DNA of 64,000 bases from Chondrilla cf. caribensis (Eukaryota > Porifera > Demospongiae > Chondrillida > Chondrillidae), in contig OZ026553.1 in NCBI GenBank assembly GCA_964020155.1, positions 3,866,509 through 3,930,508 on the forward strand, written 5' to 3'. How positions within the stretch are numbered: position 1 is the stretch's first letter; the number at the start of each line of letters is the position of its first letter. Positions 11,822 through 63,190 of this stretch are shown one piece after another. The notes beneath the pieces are model-generated. The model was not told where the DNA came from and ran no database searches. It worked only from the letters and a program-made list of their open reading frames with translations. The position numbers and the translations under genes are program-made.

Positions 11822-12114
11822 TCATTCAGTACTCCATGTTTGGTCACTTTGGACTTCCTTCTCCAGGGCATCAGCCACTCTTGGTCCATAGTCCTTGGAC
11901 CGTTTCAACTTCTCCAACAGAAACCCCCATGTTGGAGGGAATAGAATCCCAGAGTTGCCATCCCTCCAGTATCGTAAAGCCAGTATTCCACCAAGTGTTT
12001 CAGAGTCACAAGACTTAACATAGTCAATTGGTACTCCCAAACTGATGGCCAAAGAGTGCCAAAGTCGCACTGCACTCAGTATACCTTGGAGGCCAACGTC
12101 TGATGGCTTTTTAC
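11822..12114 (-). CDS. Gene A last exon: Death domain
   Basis: It encodes about 96 residues ending in TGA. The Death-domain core is visible: PSDVGLQGIL, RLWHSLAISLGVP, LGGILALRYWRDG, FPPTWGFLLEKLK and VADALEKEV, matching the W..LA..LG, LR.W..G and TW..LL..L pattern of the family. Death domains form homotypic complexes with adaptors or caspase-linked partners. It starts in phase 1 after a TAG acceptor, as in genes B and C. Confidence 0.85.
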
Positions 12115-15100
12115 CTAGAGAAACATTACCAATACTGTAATAAATAGCATGTATGTATGTATGTATGTATGTACAGACATAGATTAAGTATAACAGTCAA
12201 CAAATTTACTGGTGCACTAACAACTAAATAGCATATTTTGATGTCCTTCGATCATTGGTTTTCCACTTATCTAATAATATCCATGATAATTAGAGTTCAG
12301 ACTATTAGGACATCTATGTAGTGGTAGATAATGATCTGTACTATGTTGGATAAAATTGCCCTAACATTCAGTATTAAGTGTGCAATACTACATAGTTATG
12401 CCATGTACGGTACATACCGTGAAACTCTGAGGATTGTGGAGGTTGAGGGTCATCCAGTCTCAAAGGAGGGGATGACATTGTCCCAGGATTGTTTGGTGTG
12501 GATACTGCAAAAAATAACAAAAAAACATGTGACTAGCTTTTAGGTTGATGTGGCATTAGGTCCAAGAGGTTTTCATTATCATTAATGAACAGTACAAGAG
12601 CACTTGATTATCATTCACAAACACTGTGTACTCCCATGTCCATTGGGTGTCTTGTGATGCAGATTTTATGATTGAATGACCTCCTTAGTTTCAAATTAAT
12701 GATAAGAGATCAGAAATACCTACGTACAACATACATAACATTAAACGTCACCTTTTTCTGATACTGTTTCCTGTACTTCAACTGAAAAGCACAAATCCCC
12801 CAAACTTGTTCCAGAAACATCAAGATACACTGCTGCCGGCACTGTTACACACCCTGGGGCACAACTTTGGATAATCTTAACAAAGAATGAGGGAGGATAG
12901 AGACCCTTCTTTACAGCACGTTCCATATTCTCTTCTGTTTTGTATAAATTATAGGAAACGGCCATTTTGTTGATCTGCATGAGATTATGTGATGAAAATG
13001 TAATATCTATGCTTGTCAGGCAACAAACCATAACACACAAAGACACTCACTACTGCCTGGTTCAGACTAGCTTCCCACCCATTGCCGCTGTGTTTTCTCA
13101 GCTTGCCAGTAACTTTCTCTTCATTAACTTCAAACTGTGGACAGGGTTCATCATCACCACAGTAGTTCCATGATTCCCAATATTTAGAGAGAACCTAACA
13201 CAGAGGCATTCACCACAACATCAGCTACCTACAACAGATCAATGCATAACACATCACATGGACTCCACCCACCTCCAGCCAAAATGGTATACAGTAAACA
13301 ACAGCAACCTTCAGATAGTGTTTGTTCTTATCTACTTTTTCCCAGGCACTAGCACAGTAACTAGATGGGATCTCTTCCTTCATGGCTTGTCCTAGTAGAC
13401 TGCAGTGTCCCGATAGCTCCACTGTACCAAATGTGTCATGTAGTGATGTACACTCGGGATCCATGGCTTTGAATGTGTACATCTGTTCACCTTCTGGAAG
13501 AACATGTGGGGAGATGACAAAGGAGACATCTTCTTCAAGATGACCATGATCTCCAGCTATCCAATGAGGAATGTGGAGCTTCAGGGATTTGGAGACTTTG
13601 GAGTGGTCAAACCAGACATAGACCATTGGACTGGCTAGCCTGTAACCACTTGGAAGAGCAAAGGGACCATCAAGGATGATGCCATATCTCACCTCCAGTG
13701 AGTCACTGCTAATGGCAGTAGCTGGCACCTCCATACGAAAAGCTCTGTTGTCAACATCACTGCGTTCAAGTGTGGCTGGCTCCAGCAGGAATATCCCTCC
13801 ATTCTGTGTAAAGTTGAGGGTCTGAATACCAAATGGAATCCAGCACTGCTCCAGTAAATGAGATTCGTGATCTTCAGTGGAGGATATGAATAGAATATAC
13901 AGAATATATGTATATAACTATATTTATAAATGATAAAGCATCCACATATTCATACAATACATTTGAATGCATACTCACCATGATCTGGTCCAGTGTCTCT
14001 TCTAGGAGGATCTGAACTGCCACCAGAACTGGGAGTTGGGTTCTACACAAGATGAAGAACTAATGATTACTAATGATTTAGGACTTCCTGTCATAAAAGT
14101 AGGTTGATCTGTCGAACTAACTGTCTTTACTTTAAATGGTTGTGGTGGAGAGTCATCATATTCAGGAAATGAGGTGAATCCATATCCTGAGCCGTGTGCA
14201 GTAGATCCATATCCTGAGCTCAGTGTACTAGATCCATATCCTGAGCTCAGTGTACTAGATCCATATCTTGAAGCAAACTACGAAGACAGATATCGTGATT
14301 GATCTCATGAGTACTGAAGTGTACAAAACAAAACAATAACAAATCAAGCTATACAATATAGTACTGATACTATTGCTATGCTATTGTTCTACTAATAGTA
14401 GAACAATAGCATAACAGTAGTGATAGTGAATGCAGAATGAAAACCATAGATACGTGGTTTGGATGACTGTGTCACTGAATGATTATGTATTTACTTCATT
14501 GAATACTACATTGGGCTTTCAAACTGACATCATATCAATACGAATTTGTTCATTCACATATTAGATTACATTAATGCGAACAAGAACAAGGCATACATAT
14601 TAAGGCACATGTATGTTGTGCATGTGTTTGCCCTCATCAATCGGCTATCAGATACCTTAGTCAATATCTTCAGTTCATCTCTCCATTCTTCTTTTGACAA
14701 CCTATCTCTCCAGTAATATTCAGTTAGCACTACATATGGTGGAAAAATAGAACAAAGAAACCATCATTGAGTCAGATAACATAACACAAATACTGTAACT
14801 GTCAACAGGTTAGAAGAGACATTACAATTCAGCCGCCATGAAGTCCCGGCCATTTGTCCTCCATGATTAAGTGCATTTTGGGCTTCTAACTTCCTATAGG
14901 GGTGGGGACTATGACTAACGACAGAAAAGTAGCCGATCCCAACTATTTCCATTGTCATGTTACAACATCAACAACAAAGTGGCTGAAGTAATAATATTAT
15001 TTCCGTCATAAGACATAGTTTGTTTCGGCAAATGCTATTATATCCAGTTAAGAAATGAACTGGAAAATAGATTAATACATCTCATGTTTTACACATTACA

Positions 15101-18100
15101 CTGTGAATTTACATGTCATTTTGCTAATCACACTAGGCTTGTAGCTATAGCATTGGGCGCCATGTACATACTTTGTATCAGTTTATCTAATTTTGCTAGT
15201 TGTACTACCATGTACGCTGGTTGTTAAGTGCTGCTTGCTGTTAAGTGCCTATTTGGTCCTCGTACTATTGGTACTTTTATTAAGCGCCAACACAATAGGA
15301 AAACTTTGTATCGTTCTCGTTGCCTTCCTTATTCTCAACGAGTAGTTGTTCTCCATTGATTGGAGTCCAGACGACTTTTTAGACGTGATTAGCTCGGACT
15401 ACACTGGATAGATTGTACTCTTGGGCTTGAGAAACTCCAGAGGCCATTTCCTCACAGCGATATAATATTTGGTACCGTTGTTATTTCCTTGCTGCCACAC
15501 CTATAAGCGCCGGCGCTTAACAACCAGCATTTATGGTATACTGCATTGTTATGTAGAGACAATTGAGCCAACTATTGGATGTGAATCACAATTGCAAAAC
15601 AGGTCAGCAGCAGTCTGCTTGACTCTTGCACAATCGATGGAGGTGTCAAGAATTGAATGCTACAGATATGTATTTATAATAATATATATAGATATACATA
15701 CACAGTTGAAGCGTACAGTGACACGAGCACCGAGATTACTTGCCTCGCTTTTCAGCCCAGCAACAAGGTAGGATATAAGCACTACCACTTGGTTCTATAT
15801 GTTATATATAGCGTTATACCCAGTACATCCCTACTGTATACACATTCCTGCATGTTGGTGTCTTTGAAGTTAACAATACCAGAAATTATAAATTGCACAA
15901 GTTCTGTACATATGTGAATAGAGCTCCAAATTAATGAGTACAACAATTAAATTAAATATGCAATTATACTATTTTAGGTGAAATCGTATTCCCCACACTA
16001 CTGACTCAGAGGTGAAGATTACATGAAAACATGGACCACAAACTCACTTCCTATTTTCTCTCCAAGTTCGTGACTGACACCAACAGCCATCAAACTGTCA
16101 GTGATATCCTGATGAATAGGAATACCAGTCCTCACAACATTCCATTCTACATCTTTCATTTCCTTTGGTAGTACTCTTGAACACAACGCACTTATATCTA
16201 GCAATTGTGTGTGTAATAAGAACATCATTAGAATTATAATGTGTACAGTATAAGTGCTTATATCCCAGTTAGGGACAATATCAAAGGTGCTACTATGTGT
16301 CTACATACTGTATATACAATTTAAGACACCTTATAGTTCAATATAAGGTGGTTCTCACAAGCTCAACAAACCCCATACCTACAGACTAGTATTGGGAGGA
16401 TTTATCGAATTATATATCAATCTTCATGTCCAATCTGAATATCACTAGTGACAGCAAACTGATTAGTCACTGACAGTAATCCAGTGACTATATACCCACT
16501 TGATTATTTACAGTGATTAATCAATTTATCAATCCATTACTTTATACTCATAATTGAGTGGAAAGTACAGTCCATTCTCAGCACTATTAAAGACCTGTAG
16601 TAAACCATCAATAATATACTACATATACTCACTTTGAAACTTGACAATCAATTCATCTTCAGTGGTTCCAGCCACCAGTGAATGCCTACCCTCATGAAGA
16701 AGCAGTACACCCAACACACCAGAGACAACCTTCATTGCAGCAGTGTCAGTAGAGACATCCACTGTGGTACTCCTTTTCCCTCCAAACACTTGATGAATGG
16801 CCTTTGATCCAGCTAAAAGTGACCACATCATGAGGTGACAAACACTAAACAAACATGTTTACACAGTGGACATCTCACCTCTCACACATTTAGCTTCCTT
16901 CATCATGCCATGTTCCTCAAACACTTCAGCTGTTTCCAGTGATATCTCCAGTGGTTGAAGACATTGGTGTACAAAGATGTCCACAAACTTCTCCCATGTA
17001 CCTTTCATCTCTTTTCCAACAAACAAATTATTTGCCAGTAGATGCTTCCCCAGGAGTTTAGATACAACTAGATTACAGGGAAGTGAGTAACATGATAATG
17101 TACATGTATATTTGGGAAAAATGCAGTTATAGTTGGAAGGTCACAAGTGCATGTACATATACAGTTGCTAAATGTACATAAGTATATACACACATCACAG
17201 CTTTTGTAGCTCAGGGTAGATTGTAGTGGATATTGATACACTTGCTGTATTGGTCATGAGGGCGAGGTAGGAGTTAACAATAATTTACAAGCCAAAGTGT
17301 CTGTACCCACTACACCCTTCACAGAGGTACTTTATAGTTATTATGGGGGATGTTAACATATAAAATTACAATAGTATAATAACATCCCACACAGTCAATG
17401 GTTTGCCATGCTAATAACTGGTAAGCAACCTATAAAATACTTAGCCGTTGATCAACCCACACAACATATCACATATACATATCCTGTATATTGCCTAGAT
17501 TATTGATGCTCACAATAAAATTGTCCCACCTTTCAATAACATCACTGCTTCCGCCCCAGTGAAGCCACTCTTCTGCAAGATGCCTGCAATTCTTGTCATC
17601 TCTGAAGGTTCTTTTGTATATGAAATGGCACAAATGTGATTTAAAGCAGTCCAGCTCTCCCAGTTCTTCTGTATTTCTCCAACTTCTTCTTTTGACATCA
17701 ATCCTTCCTGACTGATATCACCAAGTGCTATGTAGAAGAAGGGGACGTAAGTAGTAATAAAAACAACCAAAATAAGAAGAATAACAAGGAGAACAAGAAA
17801 TAGAAGTAATACTGCAATACATGCTACATGTTCCCTTTGTGTACAGGGTTGGCATGTGCAATGTGTGCATGTCTGTTCACCATTAATTAGGGAAATACAT
17901 GCACCACATTCACCAATGAATAATTCATCAAGAAATGACGGATAAGTACACAGTGTCACATGCACGTACACACACATAGACATACATATAGACAAATGAC
18001 GTATACAGTGTACAGTATATGTACAGTACATACAGATGGACTGTACACATACATGTCATTATAAACAAGTATGTACACACACGTCAGAGATCTGTAAATC

Positions 18101-21100
18101 TGGAAGGATTGTAGTGGATACTGATACAATTACTATACTGTTCATGAGGGCAAGGTCAGTGTTAACAATTGAGATAAAGTGTCTGTACCCAGTACAGCAC
18201 TTCCAGATATCCTTCACAATAATTATTATGTGATATGTTCATACTTAAAATAATACCATTTTTTAAATCAACCACCCACACAGTTGTATTGTTACGGCTG
18301 ATGCAATGACGTGCTATGGTATCAAAAATAGGTACAATGTGTCCGCATGGGAAGTATTAAACTGTCCTTCTCCCCACACAACACACCACATATTATACAT
18401 ACTGTATTGTCATGTACATTGGCTGGAGTACACAAAGATGTTGGCATACATGTCAGAGCTCTGTAACTATGGAAGTATTGTAGTGGATATAGACACAATT
18501 ACTGTATTGTTAACGAGGGCAAGGTTGTTGTCAACAATTAAGATAAAGAGTGTGTACCCACTACAGCCCTTCCAGAGGTACATCATATTTACTATGTGGT
18601 GTGTTCACATACTATAATGTTTACTAAACACCCACACAGTCGTATTGTTATGGTTGATGCAATACCTTGCCGTGTTATAGTTGAAGAGAGGTACAATGTC
18701 AGCCCAGGAAGTACTAAGCCTTCGATCCACCCACACAACATATCACATATACATATCCTGTACATTGCCTAGTTTATGGATGTTCACAATAAAATTGTCC
18801 CACCTTTCAATAACATCACTCCTTCCACCCCAGTAAAGCCACTCTTCTGCAAGATATCAGCAATTCTTGCTATCACTGAAGGTTCTTTTGTACATGAAGT
18901 GGCACAAATGTAATTCAAAACAGTCCACCATGAGGATACCTCCCTGGACCAGTTCTTCTGTATTTCTCCAACTTCTCCTTTGGACATCAATCCTTCCTGA
19001 CTGATATCACCAAGTGCTATGTAGAAGAAGGGGACGTAAGTAGTAATAACAACAACCAAAATAAAAAGAATAACAAGGGGAACAAGAAATAGGAGTAATA
19101 CTGCAATACATGCTACATGTTCCCCTTGTGTATAGGGTTGGCATGTGCAGTGTGTGCATGTCTGTTCACCATTGATTGGAGAAATACACCACATTCGTCA
19201 TTGAATAATTTATCAAGAAATGATGGATATGCACACAGTGTGACATGCATGTGCATTCGCACAGACATACATATACACAGATGTACGTACAATGTCAATA
19301 CACGTACAGTATGTATACAGATGGACTGTACACATACATGTCATGATATATAAGTATGTACACACACATCAGAGATCTGTAAATTTGGAAGGATTGTAGT
19401 GGGTATTTTATAAATCAACCACCCACACTGTTGTATTGCTATGGCTGATGCAATGATGTGCTATGATATTATTCAAAACTAGGTACAATATGTCCACATG
19501 GGAACTATTAAACTGTCCTTCTCCCCACACAACACACCACATATTATACATACTGTATTGTCATGTACATTGGCTGGAGTACACAAAGATGTTGGCATAC
19601 ATGTCAGAGCTCTGTGACTATGGAAATATTGTAGTGGATATAGACACAATTACTGTATTGTCAACGAGGGCAAGGTTGGTGTCAACAATTAAGATAAAGA
19701 ATATGTACCCACTACAGCCCTTCCAGAGGTACTTCATATTTATACTATATGGTGTGTTTACATACTATAATGTTTACCAACCACCCACACAATTGTATTG
19801 TTATAGTTGATGCAATACCTTGCTGTGTTATAGTTGAAGAGAGGTACAATATGTCAGCCCAGGCAGTACTAAGCCTTTGATCCACCCACACAACATATCA
19901 CATATACATATCCTGTACATTGCCTAGTTTATGGATGTTCACAATAAAATTGTCCCACCTTTCAATAACATCACTCCTTCCACCCCAGTAAAGCCACTCT
20001 TCTGCAAGATATCAGGAATTCTTGCTATCACTGAAGGTTCTTTTGTACATGAAATGGCACAAATGTGATTCAAAACAGTCCGCCATGAGGATACCTCCCT
20101 GGACCAGTTCTTCTGTATTTCTCCAACTTCTCCTTTGGACATCAATCCTTCCTGACTGATATCACCAAGTGCTATGTAGAAGAAGGGGACGTAAGTAGTA
20201 ATAACAACAACCAAAATAAAAAGAATAACAAGGAGAACAAGAATAGGAGTAATACTGCAATACATGCTACACGTTCCCCTTGTGTATAGGGTTGGCATGT
20301 GCAGTGTGTACATGTCTATTCATCATTATTAGGGAAATACACCACATTCGTCATTGAATAATTTATCAAGAAATGATGGATATGCACACAGTGTGACATG
20401 CATGTGCATTCGCACAGACATACATATACACAGATGTACGTACAATGCCAATACACGTACAGTATGTATACAGATGGACTGTACACATACATGTCATGAT
20501 ATATAAGTATGTACACACACATCAGAGATTTGTAAATCTGGAAGGATTGTAGTGGATATTGATACAATTACTATACTGTTCATGAGAGCGAGGTCAGTGT
20601 TAACAATTGAGAGAAAGTGTCTGTTGTTATGTGGGATGTTTACACTTGAAATAATACCATTTTATAAATCAACCACCCACACTGTTGTATTGCTATGGCT
20701 GATGCAATGACGTGCTATGATATTATTCAAAACTAGGTACAATATGTCCACATGGGAACTATGAAACCGTCCATCTCCCCACACAACACACCACATATCA
20801 TACATACTGTATTGTCATGTACATTGGCTGGAGTACACAAAGATGTTGGCATACATGTCAGAGCTCTGTGACTATGGAAATATTGTAGTGGATATAGACA
20901 CAATTACTGTATTGTCAACGAGGGCAAGGTTGGTGTCAACAATTAAGATAAAGAGTGTGTACCCACTACAGCCCTTCCAGAGGTACTTCATATTTATACT
21001 ATATGGTGTGTTTACATACTATAATGTTTACCAACCACCCACACAATTGTATTGTTATAGTTGATGCAATACCTTGCTGTGTTATAGTTGAAGAGAGGTA

Positions 21101-24100
21101 CAATATGTCAGCCCAGGAAGTACTAAGCCTTTGATCCACCCACACAACATATCACATATACATATCCTGTACATTGCCTAGTTTATGGATGTTCACAATA
21201 AAATTGTCCCACCTTTCAATAACATCACTCCTTCCACCCCAGTGAAGCCACTCTTCTGCAAGATATCAGCAATTCTTGCTATCACTGAAGGTTCTTTTGT
21301 ACATGAAATGGCACAAATGTGATTCAAAACAGTCCGCCATGAGGATACCTCCCTGGACCAGTTCTTCTGTATTTCTCCAACTTCTCCTTTGGACATCAAT
21401 CCTTCCTGACTGATATCACCAAGTGCTATGTAGAAGAAGGGGACGTAAGTAGTAATAACAACAACCAAAATAAAAAGAATAACAAGGAGAACAAGAATAG
21501 GAGTAATACTGCAATACATGCTACACGTTCCCCTTGTGTATAGGGTTGGCATGTGCAGTGTGTACATGTCTGTTCACCATTGATTGGAGAAATACACCAC
21601 ATTCGTCATTGAATAATTTATCAAGAAATGATGGATATACACACAGTGTCACATGCATGTGCATTCGCACAGACATACATATACACAGATGTACGTACAA
21701 TGTCAATGCATGTACAGTATGTATACAGATGGACTGTACACATACATGTCATGATATATAAGTATGTACACACACATCAGAGAATAAAAAATAAGTGACA
21801 TCTCATCTAGCCCATTGTCATTTGATAAGTCAGCTGTTATTTCTCTGCAATCAGTAATGCGAGTCTTTTATAGAATGTTTGTGCAAGCTTTCACACCCCT
21901 CCAGATGTGCTGGATATCAATGGTGTAAAAGACCCGTGCTCAACTTCCGTTATTCTTTGTTTATAGGTACACTTCTTACTTCTCTTATGATGTCTGTAGC
22001 AAGCTTCCAGGGAAAATTTCTTGTTCATTTGTGCGTTAGGGTTAAAAACCTTCGCATCAAAAAATGCACATTGATGACTGTTACCCCAGAAACCTCTTGC
22101 TCTAATGTCTGCTCTGGCATTTTCTTCCATGTTAGAAGTGGTCAAATTGAGACTTTCACCATCCAGTAGTTGTAGAACTGGTTCGAGACACACGTCGTGA
22201 CATACTTCGGCTAGACATTTGCCAGTGAAATTTCTGATTTCGTTATGGCGTAGTGTTGGAAAAGCCCCTTGGGGCAGTTGAGAGCATGATCTATAGAGAA
22301 AGCTTCCCCACAGTCACACTTGATTGGTAACCGGTCTGGTATCCAACCATAACGAAGACATAGTGCATCACGAAAAGTACCTTTATGAAGTGCGAAACCA
22401 TGGGAATAGGTTTAGATGTAAGCCAGTTCGATAAACCTTTCTCATTGGCAAGTTCCATTGCTATGCTGAGTGACTGTGGAAGATTCAAAATCTGTGCTTC
22501 TGCTTTTTGCTGTTCCCGTCTTTTTTTCTTTTCTTCCGATTCTTTTTTCTTCTGTTGGAATTCTATTTCCTCTGAATAATGAAACTTCTGTTCCAGAATT
22601 AGCTCAACTAGAGGGGCTGTAACTTCAATTGATGTGTCATAATGTTGATTTGAGATTTTGGTGGGATTTGGAATCCCCAACCCACCGAGTCTACACGGGA
22701 GGGCTAGGAGGTCACGTTCTGCATCGGTGATGGCTTTTCTTCCGGTTATGGTGGGGATGAAGCTGTTTCGAATAATCTCCTCCAGAGGGGTGAAAAGCTT
22801 GGCTATCCCTGGTATGGTTCTCATTGCATATAGCCACTTTCCGATCAGCCCATGTGTTAGAGCAGCATAAGCTGACTGAGGCTCTGTTCTTGCTATTTTT
22901 GTCAGTGTTTCCATCTCGGCTACCCAATTTGCAAACTTGCTTTTCCAAATTCCTTAACGAAGGTATCACTCCACAAAGCTGACCCAAGATGCTGTCGGCC
23001 TGTGCTTGAGATATTGATGCCACTTTTTGCAAAAATTTCTTTTGCAATCTCCAAATACTCTTCCTTGCCCAGAAGCCACGTTTTGGAGGGGTTAGGATGA
23101 TAGCCAAAGGCAGGTCCTAGACTATTCAGTTTCGACCTCCATTCACTCACTGACAGATGATTGATCTCTCCTCCTGCTGCAGCATCGTTAGCAAACCATA
23201 GTTGCTTACACAAGTTGTTAAGTTTTTTTATTAGAGGTAGAATGGCTACTCCATACATGGACATCGCAAGAGGGTCCCCCTGTGTTGTCCCCTCCTTTGA
23301 TAGGGTTGTTTCATCTTCTATGAACATTTCTGCATTGCCTCTATACGTGTTTGTGATTATCACAGCAAGCGAAGGGCACAGGGAATGGATGTTAATGAGC
23401 GCGGCCTTTCAATTGAATGAATTAAAAGCGTTGTTTGCATCTACTAACAGAATGGCATCATTATCTTTTTCAAGCAATAGTCTCCTCATAACGTGTACAC
23501 CTGCCTCACACCCGGTAATTTGACCAACACATAATTGGGTACTACCAGCAGCTTCCTTTATGTCGTTTCTGATAACTGACAAGATGGCTTTACTCAATAT
23601 TCTTCTAGACACTTCTCCAATGCCAATTGGCCTTATTCCTGGATTTTTATCTAAGGTAATCAATCGACACGCGGTAAAACTTACTTGGCTCTCTGGATCT
23701 ACATATTCTGAGCTTTTTTTTCCGGCTACACTAGCCAAACTCACGCAAAGATCGTCAGATGCTTTTCTGAAAGATGTAAGGAGTCTTCGCCAACCCAGAG
23801 TGTCAATACCAGAGGGCCCTGCAGCACTGTCAGTCTGTAAAGCAGCCTTTCTGATGGATTCTCCATCAATACACTCGAAAATTATGGGATGGAAATTACT
23901 CTCCTGTCTTTCCACTAGGTTGGTGTCACTGATGTCGCTACCCTGTGGATGTTTCTCTTTCAACTCATCAAGCACAGTTCTGTCCCCTAGGCTTTCAGGA
24001 TCGATTTGTGAATATATAGAATGCAGGGGTCTTTCTTGCTTTGCTAGTAGTCTTATTGCTGACTTAACCTTCCCTTTTCTCATGAACTTGGAGAATGATC

Positions 24101-27100
24101 TTGCTAATTCGTCTGAATCATTATTAGCTCTATACCTCCTCTTCAATCTTTGTTGGATAGCTCTGCCTTCTGTTAGGAGCTCCTTAATATAACCCTCCCA
24201 CCGAAGAACTAAACACCTTTCTAAACACTTGATATGCTCCTTCACTTTTGATTTTGGATGGGGTTTTTGTAATAATAGATGGGGCATGGTCATTACTGCT
24301 GTCGCAATACTCTTCTAGACACTTTTCCAATGTCAATTGGCCTTATTCCTGGATTTTTATCTAAGGTAATCAATCGACACGCGGGAAAACTTACTAGGCT
24401 CTCTGGATCTACATATTCTGAGCTTATTTTTCCGGCTACACTAGCCAAACTCACACAAAGATTGTCAGATGCTGTGCAAACGATTCCAAAGGTGTTGATT
24501 CTCCATTAGCTCTAAACAAACGCGACATTTCTCCAACAAACTCCTATATAGGCGTCTTGCATCTTTGTAGAAAAGGAATCTCCATCTGTCGAATCGTTCC
24601 ACTTGAAATGGGGAGCGCGGGCCTTGGTGAATGGCGATAGTAATTTGTTTCGAGAGGAATCCTTTTCCACCCCCGCCGATTCATGGTTATCTGATTGACT
24701 TCAATCTTCATTTGGAGGAGTGTTGGAGCATTTCCCATTTCTTGATGGTAGACAGTTCAAACATGCCGTCCCACTCTTCACACATATACAGCTTCTACAT
24801 CACCCGCGGCTGGTGCGTGCGCAGCAGGCGCTCATCATTTTGCTCCGTGTCATTAATTAGGGAAATACACCACATTTGCCATTGAATAATTCATCAAGAA
24901 ATTTAATGATGGATATGCACACAGTGTCACATGCATGTACGCACGCACAGACATACATACACACAGATGTACGTACAGTGTACAGTATGTACAGATGGAC
25001 TGTACACATACATGTCATTATACATAAGTATGTACACACATGTCAGAGATCTGTAAATCTGGAAGGATTGTAGTGGATATTGATACAATTACTATACTGT
25101 TCATGAGGGCAAGGTCAGTGTTAAAAATGGAGATGAAGTGTCTGTTATTATGTGGGATGTGTACACTTGAAATAATACCATTTTGTAAATCAACCACCCA
25201 CACAGTATTGTTATGGCTGATGCAATGACGTGCTATGATATTATTCAAAAATAGGTACAATGTGTCCACATGGGATGTATTAAACTGTCCATCTGTATTA
25301 TATGTACATCTGTGTGTATGTATGTCTGGCTGGAGTATACAAAGTTGTTGTCATACATATGTACTTATATCATGGTTGAGGATCAAAGTAAAAACTGTGC
25401 GTACATAAGTCATGTAGCACAGGTCAGTGATACAGCACAGGTCACCAGACAGGTTTCATTGTTAGGATTAATTGCGTGAGAACAAGGCAGGAAATTAGTA
25501 AACATATTTCTATTGCATGTAATATGTTGCATAGGACTATGCGCATATTTGCTGTATAAATTTTCTATCAATCACCACGCCAGGATACAAGCTACAGTTA
25601 TATACGTATACATGCTGTCATACATACATGCATACATGTGCATGTACACACATGTCATAGCTCTGTACCTCTGTGAATATACACACTATTGATATATTGT
25701 TAATGAGGGCTAGGTTGGTGTTAACAATTAGGATAAATTGTGTGTGCCCACTACAGCCCTTCCAGAGGTATTATACAGTTATTACGTAAGTGATATGTTT
25801 ACACATGAAATAATACATAATGTCCACAAGAAGTAATTAGGCTAGGTTCTGCCCTCACAACACACCACATAGAGATTATTATCACGTCCATTGGCTAGAT
25901 TATGGAGGCAATACATGCACACACGCACGCATGCACAGACACACACACACATACACATGCACATGTACTACACATATGTACATGACAAGAATGTACATTC
26001 ATGTGTATATTACGTGCATTCTTATAGATATAAAATACCCCAAGGACCTGAAGCAGAGACATGAGTTCTCCCCTCATTTTACCACCACTGACCAATACAA
26101 TGTGTTAGCATGTTCTTTATCCACATGCCCTATTTCTACCTTGTTTAAAGAGAGGATAGTTGATTCCAACAAGTGAATACGTTGTTGTGATAACAAGTAC
26201 TAGGTATAATGTATACAAAACTAACTGATTGTTGGTATGTTGTTATAATTTGAAGAGCTCTGTGGTTACTCACAATCTAGTCATGGCCCATCATGGTACT
26301 ACTTGGCATAAAAGGTAGTTAATTGGTTGAGATGTGAACTAATTGCTAAGTTGGTAGAAATGTCCTCGTACTTTCTACTGGTTAGGCAATAGTGGGGATG
26401 GTCTAGCTGGCTGGACTACACACAGACATGCACACATGCATGTGCCCATACACACAACCCTACCTGTCAACATTTTACTGTCTTCCTTAAAACCATGTCT
26501 TCTTGTAATTTCCGCTGTTTTTGTTACAGTATCAGCTTCCTTACCACACTGGATGAACACCAGTCTGCCCATTAGATCTCCTTTCATTCCCTTCATCTCT
26601 TGTACATCCTCACTAGTTATCAGCTCATTCTGATACAGTTCAGTCAACACTACACAACAGGTACAAACAACATCTCATGTACTTGATCACCGGTAGAAGC
26701 TGAACAATCAACAGTAAGCAATGTATACTGCCGTAGTGAATATGGTACATATCAATGAGTTCACTGAGTACTGTACATAAGTGAGGCTAGTCTCATTAAC
26801 CAGATCCACTAATGTCTCCTTATTCATCCACCATCGTGTTGGGTGACACAGTATTAGTCAGGACAATAGACTAGATGTAGCACAATATTATAGTTGCCAA
26901 AGGTTTTACAACAGCCAGCAGTTGTAAAATTACCTTCAGGGACACTCGTGTATCTATACCTATGTGCTGTGGCCAAAATGGATCAAAAAATACATCCAGG
27001 TTATTATCATTTTTTATGCTTGATAAGTAGCTGTGAAAGTAGTTTAGAACCTTTCTAATTATCATACTGTATTTAGTGTGGAATGAATGCATCCCAGTTT

Positions 27101-27836: not shown

Positions 27837-28504
27837 CTTTAGCCGCTGTGTAAGGAGAAGAGTACATGCTGAGTGAACTACATGACAACACTCAAATATT
27901 AAGAATATACATCATCATCACATATTACCGTTACAGTATTACTGAATTACATTATAATACGATCAATGTAGCTAGTATAGAATGGAGCAGCATCTTGATG
28001 ACGCACTTAGCATGGCAAGATGGACTATTCTTAACGCTACCGTAATCGTATCATCTCAATCGAGGACATCACTTTACACAACATTAGTTTTATTGTTCAT
28101 TTTTCTACTGGAAGATATGTCCATATAATTACTTTTTTCGATGTCGTGAAATTGATCTCCAAAACAACAGCACTGGTTTCTGGCAGCCATTTTCGAGGGA
28201 TATACGTAGCGAACAGACTGGAAAAATCCCCTTCTGTCCAGTGTACACTCCGTGCATTCGATTAACTGGTATACTATTGCTCTGGATCAGTCCTAGTCTA
28301 CCAGCTTGAACGTGCTTGTTCTGTGGATGAGATGTTCATGTAAAAACACCACTGTAGGGGTTATAAACCAGTACATCAATTCTCGGTGGAATTTGGAAAA
28401 GTTACATGCTAACGACGAGTGACGGTGTTGCGAACCGGAATCGAAAGAATGAATTGGAAACCTGTAGTACAGTACAGGTTCACCACTCTCTGAATCTCGA
28501 GAGA
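27837..28504. promoter_or_regulatory. Divergent intergenic region between gene A and NOSIP-like copy 2
   Basis: About 670 bp separate two genes on opposite strands. The block CATCTCAATCGAGGACATCA... to the NOSIP ATG is conserved in unit 3 (51000-51448) and, split, in unit 1. It contains GGCAGCCATTTTCGAGG and CCACTGTAGGGGTTATAAAC. Conservation plus head-to-head layout suggest a bidirectional promoter; this is inference. The missing first exon of gene A should lie in its left third. Confidence 0.45.
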
Positions 28505-50775: not shown

Positions 50776-51448
50776 CTGTACAGTGTAAGGAGAAGAGTAC
50801 GTGCTGAGTGAACTACATGACAACACTCAAATGTTAAGAACATACTTCATCATCACCTATTACAGTAACTGTTACAGTATTACTAAATTACATTATAATA
50901 CGATAAGGTTAGGATCAATGTAGCTAGTTGCTAGTATAGAATGGAGCAGCATCTTGATGTTGCACTTCGCATGGCAAGATGGGCGCTACATGTATTATCA
51001 TCTCAATTGAGGACATCACTCCACACAACATTAGTTTTATTATTCATGTTTCGATAGGAAGATATATGTCGATGTAGCTAATTACCTCTTGCGATGTCGA
51101 GAAAACGATATCCAAAAGTACAACAACATCGGTTTCTGGCAGCCATTTTCGAGGAATAGCGAGCAGATTGGAAAATCCCCTTCTGTCCAGTGTAAACTGT
51201 TAACTATAAACATAGATACTCTATACTACGGTGCGTAGTATAGAGTATCTATGCTATAAACCAGTATATCAACCATTCGGTGGAATTTGGAAAAAGTTAT
51301 GCTAGCGGCGGGGAGTGACGGTGGTGATCACAAGGACGCTGACTTTCAGTTTAAATTCTTAAGAATGCGAACCGGAATTGAAACAATCATGAAATTGGAA
51401 ACCTGTAGTGCAGTACAGATTCACCACTCTCCGCTGAAACTGGAGAAA
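50776..51448. promoter_or_regulatory. Divergent intergenic region between gene B and NOSIP-like copy 3
   Basis: Equivalent of 27837-28504, with GGCAGCCATTTTCGAGG and CTATAAACCAGTATATCAAC retained. About 100 bp of the unit 2 block is replaced by a perfect 20-bp-arm hairpin at 51211-51253. Promoter role inferred from position. Confidence 0.4.
51211..51253. repeat. Perfect hairpin, 20-bp arms, 3-nt loop
   Basis: CATAGATACTCTATACTACG, loop GTG, then its exact reverse complement. It lies in the conserved upstream block of unit 3 only. Confidence 0.95.
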
Positions 51449-53641: not shown

Positions 53642-53705
53642 CACACACAAACACACACACACACACACACACACGTGTACACACGTACATGCACACACAC
53701 ACATG

Positions 53706-53775
<70 letters not shown>

Positions 53776-53779
53776 CACA

Positions 53780-53848
<69 letters not shown>
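53642..53848. repeat. (CA)n microsatellite, ~200 bp
   Basis: Interrupted CA run. It generates several long apparent ORFs of Thr-His or Cys-Val repeats on both strands, none of them real. Confidence 0.95.
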
Positions 53849-53850
<2 letters not shown>

Positions 53851-55673: not shown

Positions 55674-55963
55674 TCAAGTACTACTCCAAGCTGGGTTGCT
55701 CCGGATATCCTTCTCCATCGCATCAGCCACATTAGGTCCTTTGGATTCTCTCATTATTTTCAACAGAAATCCCCATGTTGGAGGGAATAGGTCTCCAGAC
55801 TTGCCATCCCTCCAGTATCGTAGAGCCAGTATTCCACCAAGGGACTGGTCTGATCTCAAAGATTGAACTTCATTTACAGGTACACCCAAACTGATAGCCA
55901 AAGAGTGCCAAACTGGAACCTTGTTCAGTACACCTTGGAGGCCAACGTCTGATGGTGTTTTAT
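55674..55963 (-). CDS. Gene C last exon: Death domain
   Basis: Encodes DKTPSDVGLQGVLNKVPVW, HSLAISLGVPVNEVQSL, LGGILALRYWRDGKSG, PPTWGFLLKIMRESK and VADAMEKDIRSNPAW before TGA. Same length and phase as gene B. Confidence 0.85.
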
Positions 55964-58900
55964 CTACAGACAACACAAAACCACAATTATAATTATGCAT
56001 GCATTAGATACAATAGGTTACTGCTACAGTAAGCCTATTACCTCAATATATAATTCCATTCGACAATCTGTAATACCTACGAATGTCTAACAATAGCATG
56101 TGTTGGTGTCTATTGTATGTGCCCTGTCTGAATATATACCTGTCCCTCACACACAAGTGATGCTAGACCATATTCATTATTGATGTACAGTACTACATGT
56201 TCCAATTACACCAGTACATATTCCCATTGTGTACAAGGTTTGCTACACAAAACACCTCACTAGTGTACCCTGCGTTGGTTCTATGCTCTACTAGTGTGTA
56301 GTGTGTCCACTACATGTACCCATAGTGCATGTGGACTGCCAACTACATCTTTCCTCTAGATTAGCATGCCAGCTATGTATGTGTTCCCCTGATGTGAAGT
56401 GTCAGTTACACGCTGGCCTATGGCTACTCTTACTGTAGAGGACACGCTACAATGTTCCTCTAGTGGAAAATCCATATGTACATGTCTTTTCACATATTAT
56501 GATGTCCACAACACACAATTCCCTCAAACTGTACACATTTATTCTCACTTTGAAAATTATTGGTTTCCTGCTCTGGAGACACAGACTCTACATTAAATTG
56601 AAAGGAACAGATTAACATTTTTATGTATCTGAGTACTGGCAGTTGATTGTCATTCCCCTAAGGATGTGAATCGTTTCACAATATGTAATCTCCAATAATA
56701 CCTACCTTCTCTACTGACACCTGCTGACTCTTGTGTTCCCACACCAGGAGATACTGGAGACAATGACAGTAGAACAATGGTTATTAACATGGCAATAATC
56801 CAATGTGTGTATACACTATATCAAATACACTGTGACACATGTAATTAGATACAACATGTGAACACAGTCATACACTACATAAGTATGCATTCAAATACTA
56901 ATACATGTACAGGTATGACCACATACAACCACAAATGTTATGTAAAATGTTACTATTTTGAACAGGACAAGGACTATTTTATAGTATTACACACATATAA
57001 CATGCCCAATATGGAGTACTGTAGCCATGGTGATGGTGCACCCAGTGAAGGGGGTTCAAGGTTAGTTGTATATAGTTCCTATATAAATCGTACAGTGCAT
57101 GCATTACCCGAAATATACATAAAATACACATGCATAGATACACTAGATGTTTACGAAAGCTAAGTGGAATTCAGCCTGCTGAGAGAGAAAGGAGAAAAGC
57201 AAAAAAACGGCAACTGCGGGACTTGAACCCAGGGTGTCTGACTAAAGCCGTGGTGGCTTCGTGGCTCAGTGGTTTATGGCGGCTTTAGTCAGACACCCTG
57301 GGTTCGAGTCCCGCAGTTGCCGGTTTTCCCTTTTCTCCTTTCTCTCTCAGCAGGCTGAATTCCACTTAGCTTTCGTATCTGTCATACGCCTGTTTACTTA
57401 CATATATGATCATCTATGATTAAGATTAGATGAAATGATTACACCCACTAAAAAAACGAGTAGACTAGGAGTAGTAGTGAAGATATCTAACGAAGTTACT
57501 AAAAGAACTGTTACATACACTAGATGTTTGTGTATTTACAAGCACAAACTAACTCACCTGGTACTTCCTCTACGACATCCTCAGCTTTGACTGAATAACA
57601 AAGGTTTTCACCATCAATCCCCGCAATGATTAGCTTTGCAACTGTACACAGAGTACGGCAGTCACTGTGACAGTTATTCTGTGTAACATCAACTAAGAAT
57701 GACGGAGGATAGACTCCCTCTTCTACAGCCATTTTCATTTTCTTTTCCGTATTATGAGTGCCATAATGGATATCAGCTTTCCTGATCTGTAAAGAAGCAA
57801 ATACAAGCATCACAATGAATGTATTACAGGACCAATCTTTTGTTTCAACTCACTTGTGGTGACACTAGATAAGCACCCCAACATTTACCGTGTGATTCAC
57901 TAAGCTGTCCTGTTATTACTTGCTTCTTGAACTTGAAGGTCACACAGTGTTTAAAACACCTTCTCCAGTGTTTCCAATACTTGTTGAGGACCTGTAGTGT
58001 AGAGGATATCTCAAAGTTAGCCAACTGTATACCATATCGAAGTCCATACACATCATACATAATAAACACTGTACCTTTAGCCAATATGGAATATTGTAAA
58101 TAATGGCCACCCTCAGCAGACGATTGCTCCCTTCTACCTTCTCCCAGGCACTAGCACAGTAACTAGATGGGATCTTCTCCCTCATGGCTTGTCCTAGTAG
58201 ACTGCAGTGTCCCGATAACTCCACAGTACCAAATGTGTCATGTAGTGAGGTACACTTGGACTCCATAGTTGTGAATGTGTACATCTGTTCACCCTCCGGA
58301 AGAACATGTGGGGAGATGACAAAGGAGGCATCTTCTTCAAGGTGACCGTGATCTCCAGCTATCCAATGAGGAATGTGGAGCTTCAGGGATTTGGTGACTT
58401 TGGAGTGGTCAAACCAGACATAGACCACTGGACTGGCTAGCCTGTAACCACTTGGAAGAGCAAAGGGACCATCAAGAATGATGCCATATCTCACCTCCAG
58501 TGAGTCACTGCTAATGGCAGTAGCTGGTACTTCCATACGAAATGCTCTGTTGTCAACATCACTGTGTTCAGGTGAGGCTGGCTCCAGTAGGAATTCCCCT
58601 CCATTTTGTGTAATGTGGAGGGTCTGAATACCAAATGGAATCCAGCACTGGTCCAGTAAATGAGATTCATGATCTTCAGTGGAGGATATGAATAGAATAT
58701 ACAGAATATAAGACTAATTAGTGTACGTACGTATATAACTATATTTATAAATGATAAAGCATCCACATATTCATACAATACATTTGATTGCATACTCACC
58801 ATGATCTGGTCCAGCATCTCTTCTAGGAGGATCTGAACTACCACCAGAACTGGGAGTTGGGTCCTACACAAGACGAAGGACAAGATTTTATGTGTAAATT

Positions 58901-61900
58901 ACTATTATTGTAAAAAGTGTCAAGTATATTTGTCAATTATAGATTAGTAGTTGTCAGATTGGCTCTTATCATCAGGATTGGTGCACTTTTATGTGTAGCA
59001 TAATTAACTTACTAATGATTTAGGACTTCCTGTCATTAAGGTAGGTTGATCTGTCGAACTAACTGTCTTTACTTTGATTGGTTGTGCTGGTGGTGGAAGG
59101 TCATCATATTCAGGAAATGAGACGGATCCATATCCTGAGCTGTATGTAGCAGATCCAAATCCTGAGCTGTGTGTAGTAGACCCATATCCTGAGCTCAGCT
59201 TACTAGATCCATATCCTGAGCTGTATGTAGTAGATCCATATCTTGAAGCAAACTACGCAGATAGATAATAATAATCGTGATTGATCTCATGAGTACTGAA
59301 GTGTACAAAACAAAACAATAACAAATCAAACTATACAATATAGTACTGATGTTATTGCTATGTTATTGTTTTACTAATAGTAGAACAATAGCATAACAGT
59401 AGTAATAGTGAATGCAGAATGAAAACCATAGATACGTAGTTTTGATGACTGTGTCACTGAAAAATTATGTATTTACTTCATTGAATACTACATTGGGCTT
59501 TCAAATTGACATCATATCAATACAAATTTGTTCATTCACATATTAGATTACATTAAAGCGAACAAGAATGGGGCATACATATTAAGGCACATGCATGTTG
59601 TGTGTTTGCCCTCATTAATCGGCTATTAGATACCTCAGTCAATCTCTTCAGTTCATCTCTCCATTGCAGAAATGCAAACAATTTATCACATTCTTCTTTT
59701 GACAACCTATCTCTCCAGTAATATTCAGTTAGCACTACACATGGTGGAAAAATAGAATACAGAAAGCAATCACTGAGTCAGATAACATAACACATATACT
59801 GTAACTGTCAACAGGTTAGAAGAGACATTACAATTCAGCCGCCATGAAGTCCTGGCCACTTGTCCTCCATGATTAAGTGCATTTTGGGCTTCTAATTTCG
59901 TATAGGGGTGGGGACTATGACTAAGGACAGAAAAGTAGCTGATCCCAACTATTTCCATTGTCATGTTACAACATCAACAATAAAGTGGCTGGAGTAATAA
60001 TATTATTTCGCCAGAAGACATAATCTGTTTGGCCAAATGCTATTATATTCAGTAAAGAACTGAACTGGAAAATAGATTAATACATCTCATGTTTTACACA
60101 TTACACTGCAAATTTACATGTCCTTTTGCTAATCACTCTAGTCTTTGTAGCTATAGCAATGGGCACCATGTACATACTTTGTATCAGCTTAACCAATTTT
60201 GCTAGTTGTATTACGGTGAATGCTAGTTGTTAAACGCTGCTCGCTGTTAAGCACCTATTTTGTCCTCGTACTATTGGTACTTTTATTAAGTGCCAATGCA
60301 ATAGGAACACTTTGTATTGTTCTCGTTGCCTTCCTTTTTCTCAACGTAGCTCTCCACTGATTGGAGTCCAGATGACTTTTTAGACGTGATTAGCTCGGAC
60401 TACACTGGATAGATCGTACTCTTGGGCTTGAGAAACTCCAGAGGCCATTTCCTCACAGCGATATAATGTATTTGGCACCGTTGTTATTTCCTTGCTGTCA
60501 CACCTAAAAGCGCCGGCGCTTAACAACCAGTGTTAACAGTATACTGCATTGTTTTGTAGAGACAATTGAGCCAACTATTGGATGTGAATCACAATTGCAA
60601 AACAGGTCAGTAGCAGTCTCCTTGACTCTTGCAAAATTGATTGAGGTGTCAAAATTTGAATGCTACAGATATATATATATATATTAATATACATAGATAT
60701 ACATACATACATAGTTGAAACGTAAAGTGACACGAGCACCAAGATTACTTGCCTCGCTTTTCAGCCCAGCAACAAGGTAGGATTTAAGCACTGCCACTTG
60801 GTTCTATAGTGTTATATATAGCATTATACCTAGTACATCCCTACGGTATACATATTCCTGCATGTTGTTGTCTTTGAAGTTAACAATACCAGAAATTAAA
60901 AATTACACAAGTTATGTACATTTGTGAATAGCACTCCAAATTAATGAGTACAACAATTAATATGCAATTATACCATTTTAGGCGAAATCGTATTCCCCAC
61001 ACTACTGACTCAGAGGTGAGGATTACATTAAAACATTGACCCCAAACTCACTTCCTATTTTCTCTCCAAGTTCGTAACTGACACCAACATCCATCAAACT
61101 GCCAGTAATATCCCGATGAATACGATTACCAATCCTCACAACATTCCATTCTATATCTGTCATTTTCTTTGGTAGTACTCTTGAACACAACTCACTTATA
61201 TCTAGCAATTGTGTGTGTAATAAGAACATCATTAGAATTATAATGTGTACTGTATAAGTGCTTATATCCCAGTTAGGGGCAATATCAAAGGTGCTACTGT
61301 GTGTCTAGTAAGTACAATTTAAGACACCTTATAGTTCAATATAAGGTGGTTCTCACAAGCTCAACAAACCCCATACCTACAGACTAATATTGGGAGGATT
61401 TATCGATTAATATATCAAGCTTCATGTCCAATTTGAATATCACTAGTGACAGCAAACTGATTAGTCACTGAAAGTAATCCAGTGACTATACCAACTATAT
61501 CAATCCAATGGCATTACTTTATTCTCATATTTGAGAAGAAAGTACAGTCCATTCTCAGCACTATTACAGACCTGTAGTAAACCATCAATAATACACTACA
61601 TATACTCACTTTGAAACTTGATAATCAATTCGACCTCAGTGGTTCCAGCCACCAGTGAATGCCTATCCTCATGAAGAAGCAGTACACCCAACACACCAGA
61701 GACAACCTTCATTGCAGCAGTACCAGTGGAGACCTCCACTGTGGTACTTCTTTTCCCTCCAAACACTTGATGAATGGCTTTTGATCCAGCTAAAGGTGAC
61801 CACATCATGAGGTAACAAACACTAAACCAACATGTTACACAGTGAACATCTCACCTCTCACACATTTGGCTTCCTCCACCATGCCATGTTCCTCAAACAC

Positions 61901-62143
61901 TTTTGCTGTTTCCAGTGATATCTCCAGTGGTTGAGGACATTGGTGTACAAAGATGTTCACAAACTGCTCCCATGTACCTTTCATCTCTTTTCCAGCAAAT
62001 AACTTATTTGCCAGTAGATTCTTCTCCAGCAGTTTAGATAAAACTAGATTATAGGAAAGTGAGTAACATGATAATAATTGCACATGTATATTTGTCAAAA
62101 ATGCAGTTATAGCTGGAAGGTCACAAGTGCATGTACACACACA

Positions 62144-62207
<64 letters not shown>

Positions 62208-62223
62208 CACACAAACACACAAA

Positions 62224-62287
<64 letters not shown>

Positions 62288-63190
62288 TTTACATACATAT
62301 ACATGTCATTATACATACATACACATGTCACAGCCTTGTAACTGGGGTGGATTGTAGTGGATATTGCTACAATTGCTGTATTGGTCATCAGAGTGAGGTA
62401 GGAGTTAACAATTTACAAGCCAAAGTGTCTGTACTCACTACACCCTTCACAGAGGTACTTTATAGTTATTATGTGGGATGTTCATAACAAGTAATTCGAA
62501 TTCAATAACTTGCGGGGCTACTGCCCCCACACTCAAATTACGTGGGCGTCTTCCTTAGGTTCAGAAGAACCTTCGCAGAAGTTATTACATTCGGTGGAGC
62601 TTCAATGCACAAATTCTAGCCCAATTTCTAATTGTCGGCGTTTGAAATCGGCCATCTTTTTTTCGCACAATATAAATTATAATATAAATTCATTGTTGCG
62701 ATTACGCATAGGAACACATATTATTTATATATATATATATGTATATATCGGACGAGCATAACATACCGGAAGTTGAAATGAAAATAAAAACAATATAGGG
62801 GCTGCCACAGGCAGCCCCTAAAAATATATAATAACATCCCACAGTCAATGGTTTGCCATGCTAATAACTGGTACAATGGGAGCCTATGAAGTACTAAGCC
62901 TTTGATCTACCCACACAACATATCACATATACACATCCTGTACATTGCCTAGATTATGGATATTTACAATAAAATTGTACCACCTTTTAATAACATCACT
63001 TCTTCCTTCCCAGTAAAGCCACTCTTCTGCAAGATGTCTGCAATTCTTGTCATCACTGAGGGTTCTTTTGTGCATGAAATGGCACAAATGGAATTCGATG
63101 CAGCCTGCAATGAGGGTCCCTCCCAACACTTTGGTACTTGTTGAATTTCTTCTTTGGACATCAGTCCTTCCTGACTGATATCACCAAGTA
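55674..63190 (-). CDS. Gene C: modular CARD-like/ZU5/UPA/Death protein, 5' end outside window
   Basis: Twelve exons in transcript order: 63190-62984, 62043-61855, 61789-61610, 61201-61052, 59734-59634, 59252-59013, 58863-58800, 58673-58075, 57991-57854, 57786-57558, 56753-56706, 55963-55674. Phases agree, giving about 811 codons so far. The order is M3, M4, M5, M6, half-module, linker, ZU5, UPA, linker, Death. Further M3 or M1 exons should lie beyond 64000. No stop codons or frameshifts are seen. Introns carry a MITE (60212), a retroposon (57153), a CA run and a hairpin-ended element (62487). Confidence 0.8.
56706..56753 (-). CDS. Gene C UPA-Death linker exon
   Basis: 48-nt phase 1-1 exon (VSPGVGTQESAGVSRE), nearly identical to 42686-42733. 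Confidence 0.65.
57153..57514. mobile_element. tRNA-derived fold-back retroposon with 15-bp target duplication
   Basis: ATACACTAGATGTTT occurs at 57138-57152 and again at 57515-57529; gene B has the single site (near 43110). The insert contains a ~97-bp inverted repeat (57154-57251 against about 57277-57376) whose right half is tRNA-like: GGCTCAGTGG resembles an A box, GGGTTCGAGTCCC a B box, and GGTGGCT at 57246 can pair with AGTTGCC. A non-repetitive tail follows to 57514. The target duplication implies LINE-type retroposition of a SINE-like RNA; the inverted structure is unusual. Confidence 0.75.
57558..57991 (-). CDS. Gene C UPA-region exons (two)
   Basis: 57991-57854 encodes VLNKYWKHWRRCFKHCVTF to LVSPQ; 57786-57558 encodes IRKADIHYGTHNTEKKM, GVYPPSFLVDVTQNN and ENLCYSVKAEDVVEEVP. 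Phase 0 junction; lengths equal gene B. Confidence 0.7.
58075..58673 (-). CDS. Gene C ZU5 exon
   Basis: Encodes MEVPATAISSDSLEVRYGI, GPFALPSGYRLASPVVYVW, FVISPHVLPEGEQMYTF and DTFGTVELSGHCSLLGQAM, then LRVAIIYNIPYWLK. 599 nt; very close to genes A and B. Confidence 0.85.
58800..59734 (-). CDS. Gene C half-module and linker exons
   Basis: 59734-59634 (VLTEYYWRDRLSKEECDKL, WRDELKRLTE), 59252-59013 (five 9-residue repeats such as YGSTTYSSG, then FPEYDDLPPPAQPIKV) and 58863-58800 (DPTPSSGGSSDPPRRDAGP). It carries the longest Tyr-Gly-Ser repeat of the three genes. Confidence 0.7.
60212..60541. mobile_element. TA-flanked MITE in gene C intron
   Basis: Counterpart of 15208-15536 with shared interior (TTAGACGTGATTAGCTCGGA) and right end CGCTTAACAACCAGTGTTAA. 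Absent from gene B. Confidence 0.7.
61052..62043 (-). CDS. Gene C module exons M4-M6
   Basis: 62043-61855 (VLSKLLEKNLLANKLFAGK to HGMVEEAKCVRG), 61789-61610 (AGSKAIHQVFGGKRSTT to LLLHEDRHSLVAG) and 61201-61052 (DISELCSRVLPKKMTDI to VSYELGEKIG). Lengths 189, 180, 150 nt, phase 1-1, as in A and B. Confidence 0.7.
62135..62284. repeat. (CA)n microsatellite in gene C intron
   Basis: About 150 bp of CA with ATGCACACAAACAC interruptions. Genes A and B have only short CA tracts here. Confidence 0.95.
62487..62824 (+). mobile_element. Hairpin-ended short element, copy 3
   Basis: Same orientation as 9333-9665: ACAAGTAATTCGAATTC at the left, GGGGCTGCC-ACA-GGCAGCCCCTAAAA at the right. Genes A (17350) and B (47735) show the uninterrupted intron. 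The flanks are TTCATA and TATATA, without a convincing target duplication. Confidence 0.75.
62984..63190 (-). CDS. Gene C module exon M3
   Basis: Encodes VLGDISQEGLMSKEEIQQV, SICAISCTKEPSVMTRIAD and SGFTGKEEVMLLKG. 207 nt, phase 1-1, closest to 49142-49348 of gene B. Confidence 0.7.

Follow-up and report, generated by a model that had tools for sequence, protein, structure and literature searches.

Which kind of protein is encoded by three neighbouring genes of the sponge Chondrilla cf. caribensis that join arrays of short helical modules to ZU5-type exons? The genes, here called A, B and C, lie in a window of 64,000 nucleotides (contig OZ026553.1, positions 3,866,509 to 3,930,508), which is part of the contig designated C8 in the searched genome of 137 Mb and 37 contigs. 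An original prediction, made from the letters of the window, had read them as an undescribed sensor or scaffold family of innate immunity or cell death. The gene cluster to which they belong looks like a little-known immune or cell-death sensor, the length of which is changed by single-exon copying.

Gene structure of the three paralogues

Gene models were predicted by locating conserved open exons and splice sites and by comparing the copies with one another, after which the exons were joined. Three tandem paralogous genes on the minus strand of the window were obtained: gene A (28190-11822, 17 exons, open protein of 1140 aa), gene B (51146-41663, 14 exons, 926 aa) and gene C (68334-55674, 15 exons, 1017 aa), the 5' end of the last being located beyond the window. 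All 43 introns are of the GT-AG type and the frame is preserved at every join, which confirms that three neighbouring genes connect modules to ZU5-type exons. Position 63190, given earlier as the end point of the family, belongs to an internal exon of gene C and is not a gene start, because only 11 of the 15 exons of this gene fall in the window; m1 copy 1, m7, m6 and exon 1 are situated outside it, at 64986-68334 on the window scale.

The exon order starts with exon 1 (ATG and a Cys triplet), m6, m7, the m1 array, m2, m3, m4 and the short module m5, followed by linker 1 with SSGYGS repeats, linker 2, ZU5, two UPA exons and Death. Both the N-terminal ATG exon (MAARN..CCC) and the Gly-Tyr-Gly repeat linker were absent from the original prediction. 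Array variation was computed directly from these models: gene A carries four m1 copies, B and C two each, and m7 is present in A and C only. Exons of m6, m7, m1, m2, m3 and m4 (150-219 nt) are in phase 1-1 in 22 of 22 cases, as had been claimed for the modules in general; the short m5 (74-101 nt) is in phase 1-0. The regularity proposed over whole genes stands for the joins, all of which are in frame, and not for the phases themselves, since phases 0 and 1 both occur among the exons of the linker, ZU5, UPA and Death. As the modules occupy their own phase 1-1 exons, arrays can be lengthened or shortened by in-frame exon duplication.

The linker varies as well. GYG-type units number one in B, three in A, four in C, four in the left neighbour and 23 in the right neighbour, where the linker start was placed by eye; these 23 units are located at 81173-81925 on the window scale. 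The two neighbours are further copies flanking the window, and the 5' end of the right-hand one lies beyond the stretch examined. The exons of the three genes inside the window are as follows.

28133..28190 (-), gene A exon 1: ATG, MAARNQCCC..., phase 0-1; conserved 5' of m6 in A, B and C; donor in frame
27627..27845 (-), gene A module m6, phase 1-1
26464..26649 (-), gene A module m7, phase 1-1; Pfam CARD at its start (E 0.11, below cut-off)
21213..21425 (-), gene A module m1 copy 1, phase 1-1
19959..20171 (-), gene A module m1 copy 2, phase 1-1
18804..19016 (-), gene A module m1 copy 3, phase 1-1
17530..17727 (-), gene A module m1 copy 4, phase 1-1; used for fold prediction
16879..17067 (-), gene A module m2, phase 1-1
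16633..16812 (-), gene A module m3, phase 1-1
16048..16197 (-), gene A module m4, phase 1-1
14656..14729 (-), gene A short module m5, phase 1-0
14071..14277 (-), gene A linker 1, SSGYGS repeats, phase 0-0
13979..14042 (-), gene A linker 2, phase 0-1
13273..13871 (-), gene A ZU5 and first UPA strands, phase 1-0; carries GHCSLL
13051..13194 (-), gene A UPA part 1, phase 0-0
12752..12974 (-), gene A UPA part 2, phase 0-1
11822..12114 (-), gene A Death exon and stop
51086..51146 (-), gene B exon 1: ATG, MAARNRCCC...
50572..50775 (-), gene B module m6, phase 1-1
49142..49348 (-), gene B module m1 copy 1, phase 1-1
47921..48127 (-), gene B module m1 copy 2, phase 1-1
47216..47404 (-), gene B module m2, phase 1-1
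46970..47149 (-), gene B module m3, phase 1-1
46412..46561 (-), gene B module m4, phase 1-1
44994..45094 (-), gene B short module m5, phase 1-0
44598..44759 (-), gene B linker 1, phase 0-0
44414..44477 (-), gene B linker 2, phase 0-1
43674..44272 (-), gene B ZU5 and first UPA strands, phase 1-0
43453..43590 (-), gene B UPA part 1, phase 0-0
43157..43385 (-), gene B UPA part 2, phase 0-1
41663..41952 (-), gene B Death exon and stop
62984..63190 (-), gene C module m1 copy 2, phase 1-1
61855..62043 (-), gene C module m2, phase 1-1
61610..61789 (-), gene C module m3, phase 1-1
61052..61201 (-), gene C module m4, phase 1-1
59634..59734 (-), gene C short module m5, phase 1-0
59013..59252 (-), gene C linker 1, SSGYGS repeats, phase 0-0
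58800..58863 (-), gene C linker 2, phase 0-1
58075..58673 (-), gene C ZU5 and first UPA strands, phase 1-0; used for fold prediction
57854..57991 (-), gene C UPA part 1, phase 0-0
57558..57786 (-), gene C UPA part 2, phase 0-1
55674..55963 (-), gene C Death exon and stop

Predicted folds and the candidate cleavage site

Structure prediction and profile searches had been proposed together with the original prediction as checks. The former gave folds matching known structures for m1 (one copy) and for the ZU5 exon. The latter named less: Pfam found no ZU5 (PF00791), UPA or Death in proteins A-C at E <= 1, and CARD in protein A only at E 0.11, below the cut-off. Pfam CARD (PF00619) matched none of 24 module sequences and none of the 15 in another set, and the same profile does match CARDs elsewhere in this genome.

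The predicted fold of gene A m1 copy 4 has five helices, which superpose on residues 26-88 of the APAF-1 CARD; from the six-helix bundle expected of a CARD, helix 1 is missing in the model, in agreement with the claim that the modules are CARD-like yet shorter than a CARD. It is unlikely, in our judgement, that the modules are not derived from a CARD and that the array arose independently as a helical repeat, in which case any compact five-helix bundle would superpose equally well. The top five structural rows for m1 argue otherwise, being APAF-1 CARD chains, a CARD-CARD disk chain, a design on an APAF-1-CARD template and another design, all with alignments beginning at residue 26, and the structural register matches both the profile comparison and the G-L-M-S-x-E-E turn. 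The model thus indicates a CARD-like fold lacking helix 1 for m1, and the other modules may share it. Two other candidates were rejected: a weak profile match to the RAIDD CARD was lost with a larger alignment and is not used as proof, and an assignment of m3 as TRADD-N, prompted by PMC8195603, found no Pfam support.

For the ZU5 exon of gene C, a good predicted fold, a ZU5 beta-sandwich, was obtained. Its structural matches are UNC5b, ankyrins, NLRP1 and CARD8, together with GAIN, a related domain found in adhesion receptors; ankyrin-B and UNC5b are the top matches, NLRP1 and CARD8 following within 1-2 Z units. At E <= 1, Pfam ZU5 matched five of 19 relatives, the best with 8.9e-4; in a more diverse set of 32 it matched 21 at E <= 0.1, with 2e-6 as the best value, and one member matched FIIND at the same threshold. 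When profiles were run on PDB sequences, neither ZU5 nor UPA nor CARD came up with a usable E-value. The first UPA strands in the same model align with UNC5b and ankyrin-B and other ZU5 loci share the same UPA exon order, while a UPA profile of eight relatives found nothing relevant among PDB sequences. None of 11 Death exons was matched by Pfam, and the Death profile gave weak matches to PIDD death domains in the PDB (E 0.57 and 0.87), an unrelated match ranking better (0.041). Of the three names used in the original prediction, ZU5 is therefore supported by the predicted fold; UPA and Death are suggested by exon order and weak similarity. The YPP motif of UPA part 2 was considered as the NLRP1 UPA-UPA contact loop; its hand-counted spacing from the cleavage site does not fit and no claim is made.

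Self-cleavage of PIDD, NLRP1 and CARD8 takes place at F/S, where ZU5 ends; the Ser is needed, the Phe is a buried anchor, and an upstream His is reported to be catalytic in NLRP1, according to excerpts of PMC3210808 and PMC8081665. Genes A, B and C read GHCSLL at the corresponding site. An alignment of 139 sequences, comprising 19 from loci of this genome and 120 listed of 136 database matches, gave the triplets HSS (55), HCS (46), HNS (13), HCT (13), HST (6), KKC (3), DNC (1), HFC (1) and DTC (1). The P1' residue is Ser, Thr or Cys in 139 of 139 and the preceding His is present in 134; among 22 representatives, P1 is C, S or N in 19 and F in one. A possible nucleophile is therefore always present, His nearly always and Phe almost never: the P1' nucleophile and the upstream His expected of an autoproteolytic ZU5 of the FIIND/PIDD type were found, and the Phe at P1 was not. 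His123, conserved in 21 of the 22 representatives, is the putative catalytic His. It aligns with a His in the first ZU5 domain of a PIDD1-like protein encoded in this genome, and HCS aligns with HFS (E 0.046 and 0.0053, probability 1% and 7%, which gives a register and no proof); with the second ZU5, no alignment was obtained at the cleavage site. The PIDD1-like gene (C11:5103181-5106405) encodes LRRs and two ZU5, each ending in the canonical HFS (Pfam ZU5 6.1e-15).

Structural alignments with the NLRP1 FIIND (7crv), GPR110, latrophilin-1, latrophilin-3, GPR97 and GPR56 stop by model residue 156. The NLRP1 FIIND is reportedly cut at that place and the five receptors are presumably cut too. Four other GAIN rows extend to residue 164-167, and NLRP1 7crw and CARD8 to 200.

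Self-cleavage in the family has, in our estimate, about an even chance. A serious alternative, somewhat less probable than the switch mechanism proposed below, is an uncleaved scaffold like ankyrin or UNC5, with a rigid ZU5-UPA-Death platform, the HxS as a structural turn and the array as a multivalent adaptor that recruits more partners the longer it is. The ranking of ankyrin-B and UNC5b above NLRP1 and CARD8 agrees with it, as do the near absence of the Phe of cleaved members (excerpts of PMC3210808) and the loss of the preceding His in three of 22 representatives. The invariant Ser, Thr or Cys speaks against a scaffold, while ankyrin-3 has the nucleophile-free FPQ opposite the HFS of the PIDD1-like protein (the alignment is weak, with E 0.033 over the full chain and 7 over that stretch).

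Copy number and coding constraint

The genome search with the ZU5 exon (100 of 294 candidates scored, a place being counted if the match covers the ZU5 part) gave at least 39 places on 12 contigs. Nine of them, on C8 at 3.78-4.01 Mb, constitute a nine-gene cluster that includes A, B and C. For m1, 83 matches were found: 42 in the cluster, 40 elsewhere on C8 (4.30-4.64 Mb) and one on C6. When allotted by position to the nine genes (our own assignment), the m1 copies number, from left to right, 13, 4, 1, 4 (A), 2 (B), 2 (C), 7, 2 and 7. Every one of the 27 matches to m2, m3 and m4 falls inside the cluster. With single-exon profiles, a public protein set yielded 136 matches for the ZU5 exon and 43 for the module, both groups including copies from this same genome; a precomputed Pfam ZU5 was present on four of the 120 listed ZU5 relatives. 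The whole-protein search of public proteins gave no match among 3169 candidates, probably because the database cuts eukaryotic genes into exon-sized predictions.

Other arrangements were also observed. On C8 at about 4.61 Mb, m1-like modules precede an open frame that encodes a P-loop (Pfam Roc 2e-4, below cut-off), and a GTPase may there take the place of ZU5 as the partner of the modules. Four stretches of C22 carry another ZU5 set with VRHF[CST] at the corresponding end. At two loci of C3, the stretch 5' of the ZU5 exons resembles an ankyrin repeat (EKTPLKLA..HSSVVSYI), without Pfam confirmation for the single copy tested.

Coding constraint was assessed by pooled nonsynonymous/synonymous ratios in three frames with bootstrap intervals. 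The sets comprised UPA part 2 of three genes, ZU5 of five, Death of two, m2-m4 of five and 11 of the 13 m1 copies at hand; excluded were the two remaining m1 copies, every exon of UPA part 1 and of m5-m7, and the UPA exons of gene A and its left neighbour, which represent a different variant (0.16). In five of five sets the model frame has the lowest ratio. UPA part 2 (0.19 vs 1.26 and 2.02 in the other frames) and ZU5 (0.45 vs 0.89 and 0.71) have intervals below 1; the Death ratio is 0.47, from two genes, with an interval passing 1, and that of m2-m4 is 0.63. For m1 the ratio is 0.73 vs 0.82 and 0.74, a slight frame contrast, with an interval of 0.50-1.07. Bootstraps placed m1 above ZU5 in 96%, m2-m4 above ZU5 in 90% and ZU5 above UPA part 2 in 97%. 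This modest gradient, with UPA most and modules least constrained, agrees with an output that stays conserved while the input changes.

Despite the slight frame contrast, the m1 exons are kept open by a rough test. Stop codons occur in one of the 83 genome matches (one of 42 within the cluster), the mean pairwise difference between copies is 31.5 of 204, and in a simulation a load of 8 random substitutions per copy would break 38% of them and one of 16 would break 61%, a rough estimate as the copies share ancestry.

A recent tandem expansion sliding towards decay, with little function past a few copies, would be in keeping with the m4-m5 intron, which differs between A and C by 0.08 per site, as little as the exons (between B and C the value is 0.746, a stretch of B differing or having failed to align). 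Stops in three of the 39 ZU5 places point the same way, as do two Death exons that are broken or partial (36.3-36.6 and 40.7-41.0 kb). We nevertheless hold decay very improbable: the three genes have complete frames over 14-17 exons, the ratios of UPA part 2 and ZU5 are low with both intervals below 1, and 82 of 83 m1 matches are stop-free. The two such Death exons in the window are:

40743..40955 (-), orphan Death exon, second type, 3' of gene B; similarity ends before the exon end
36328..36601 (-), orphan Death exon, frame broken

Another orphan or broken Death exon was noted at about 74.2-74.5 kb on the window scale. The second Death type occurs downstream of the genes left and right of the window, and gene B has only an orphan of that type.

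Mobile elements are also present. Reverse-transcriptase-like open frames are found at 22294-24314 (-), inside the m7-m1 intron of gene A, with GTTQGDPLAM, which we take to be a reverse transcriptase motif. By eye, a LINE-like element with an endonuclease/reverse-transcriptase look at 1-4170 (+) and a long inverted repeat, possibly a MITE-like element, at about 5790-6940 could be distinguished.

Proposed mechanism and relation to known systems

By analogy with PIDD1, NLRP1 and CARD8, these genes may encode intracellular switch proteins combining an array, a ZU5-UPA restraint and a Death output, a reading that we hold to be the most likely one, at about even odds. The N-terminal array of CARD-like five-helix modules, one phase 1-1 exon each, would serve binding or assembly, and the Gly-Tyr-Gly linker would connect it to the ZU5-UPA unit and the C-terminal Death-like domain. 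In the resting state, ZU5 packed on UPA would block UPA-Death assembly; engagement or loss of the array would free or cluster UPA-Death, which could then nucleate a death-domain signalling complex. Many members might be cut by themselves before the conserved Ser, Thr or Cys at the ZU5 end, the chains staying paired until the N-terminal part is removed. Gene structure and the conserved His with its nucleophile were computed directly; we infer the restraint and its release, as well as self-cleavage and an immune or cell-death function.

A more specific form of the switch is quite doubtful, namely that the array is a continuous death-fold solenoid with a module-number ruler, joined to a relaxed-site (His-x-Ser/Thr/Cys) ZU5 hold on UPA-Death. 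The place of helix 1 would be filled by the last helix of the preceding module, a few residues away, and the number of modules, set by single-exon duplication, would tune the readiness for nucleation, with ZU5 holding UPA-Death until the array is engaged or lost. If true, this would be a functional-degradation sensor family of early animals that carries a tunable ruler and falls outside all ZU5-UPA families named so far.

To our knowledge, ZU5-UPA switches of the PIDD/NLRP1/CARD8 type have been studied functionally almost only in vertebrates. The large and diverse ZU5 set, with its natural variation at the cleavage site, would make the self-cleavage rule testable on evolved variants. CARD-like arrays lacking helix 1, if confirmed, would mean a new use of the death fold and a simple exon-based diversification of a sensor.

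In the parts consulted of five papers taken jointly (PMC8195603, PMC12909245, PMC8260672, PMC11508797, PMC11697300), expansions of NLR, Death and TRADD-N are described in sponges and NACHT-ZU5 combinations in cnidarians and other early animals; a common origin of GAIN, ZU5 and Nup98 appears there as a title in a reference list. A ZU5-UPA-Death family with a module array was not found in the portions of the open-licence literature searched. The reading as an undescribed sensor or scaffold family is partly supported overall. NACHT and LRR, which would indicate an NLR, were not detected in proteins A-C by Pfam at E <= 1.

Among known systems, the five helices of m1 resemble residues 26-88 of the APAF-1 CARD, whereas helix 1 is missing, up to 13 tandem copies occur per gene and none of the 24 modules has a Pfam match. 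Excerpts of PMC8195603 describe TRADD-N and Death-like expansions in Amphimedon, and ZU5/FIIND fusions in some animals. The family shares with Amphimedon a large lineage-specific expansion of the Death superfamily; it differs in that A-C show no Pfam TRADD-N, and an array of modules lacking helix 1 is not described in those excerpts. UNC5, UNC5CL and ankyrins have ZU5-UPA-Death architectures, and the ZU5, UPA-like and Death-like parts follow the same order here, with UNC5b and ankyrin-B as top structural matches; unlike them, A-C have no ankyrin repeats or immunoglobulin-type parts by Pfam, and a nucleophile is kept where ankyrin-3 reads FPQ (weak alignment). In NLRP1 and CARD8 the FIIND (ZU5-UPA) is followed by a CARD, while here the Death-like domain is C-terminal and the CARD-like modules are N-terminal. 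PIDD1 (LRR-ZU5-ZU5-UPA-Death, autocleaved at HF/S) differs by its LRR, its second ZU5, the lack of a module array and Phe at P1, and a separate PIDD1-like gene exists in this genome; it is alike in having ZU5 followed by UPA-like and Death-like parts, an HxS and an aligned upstream His.

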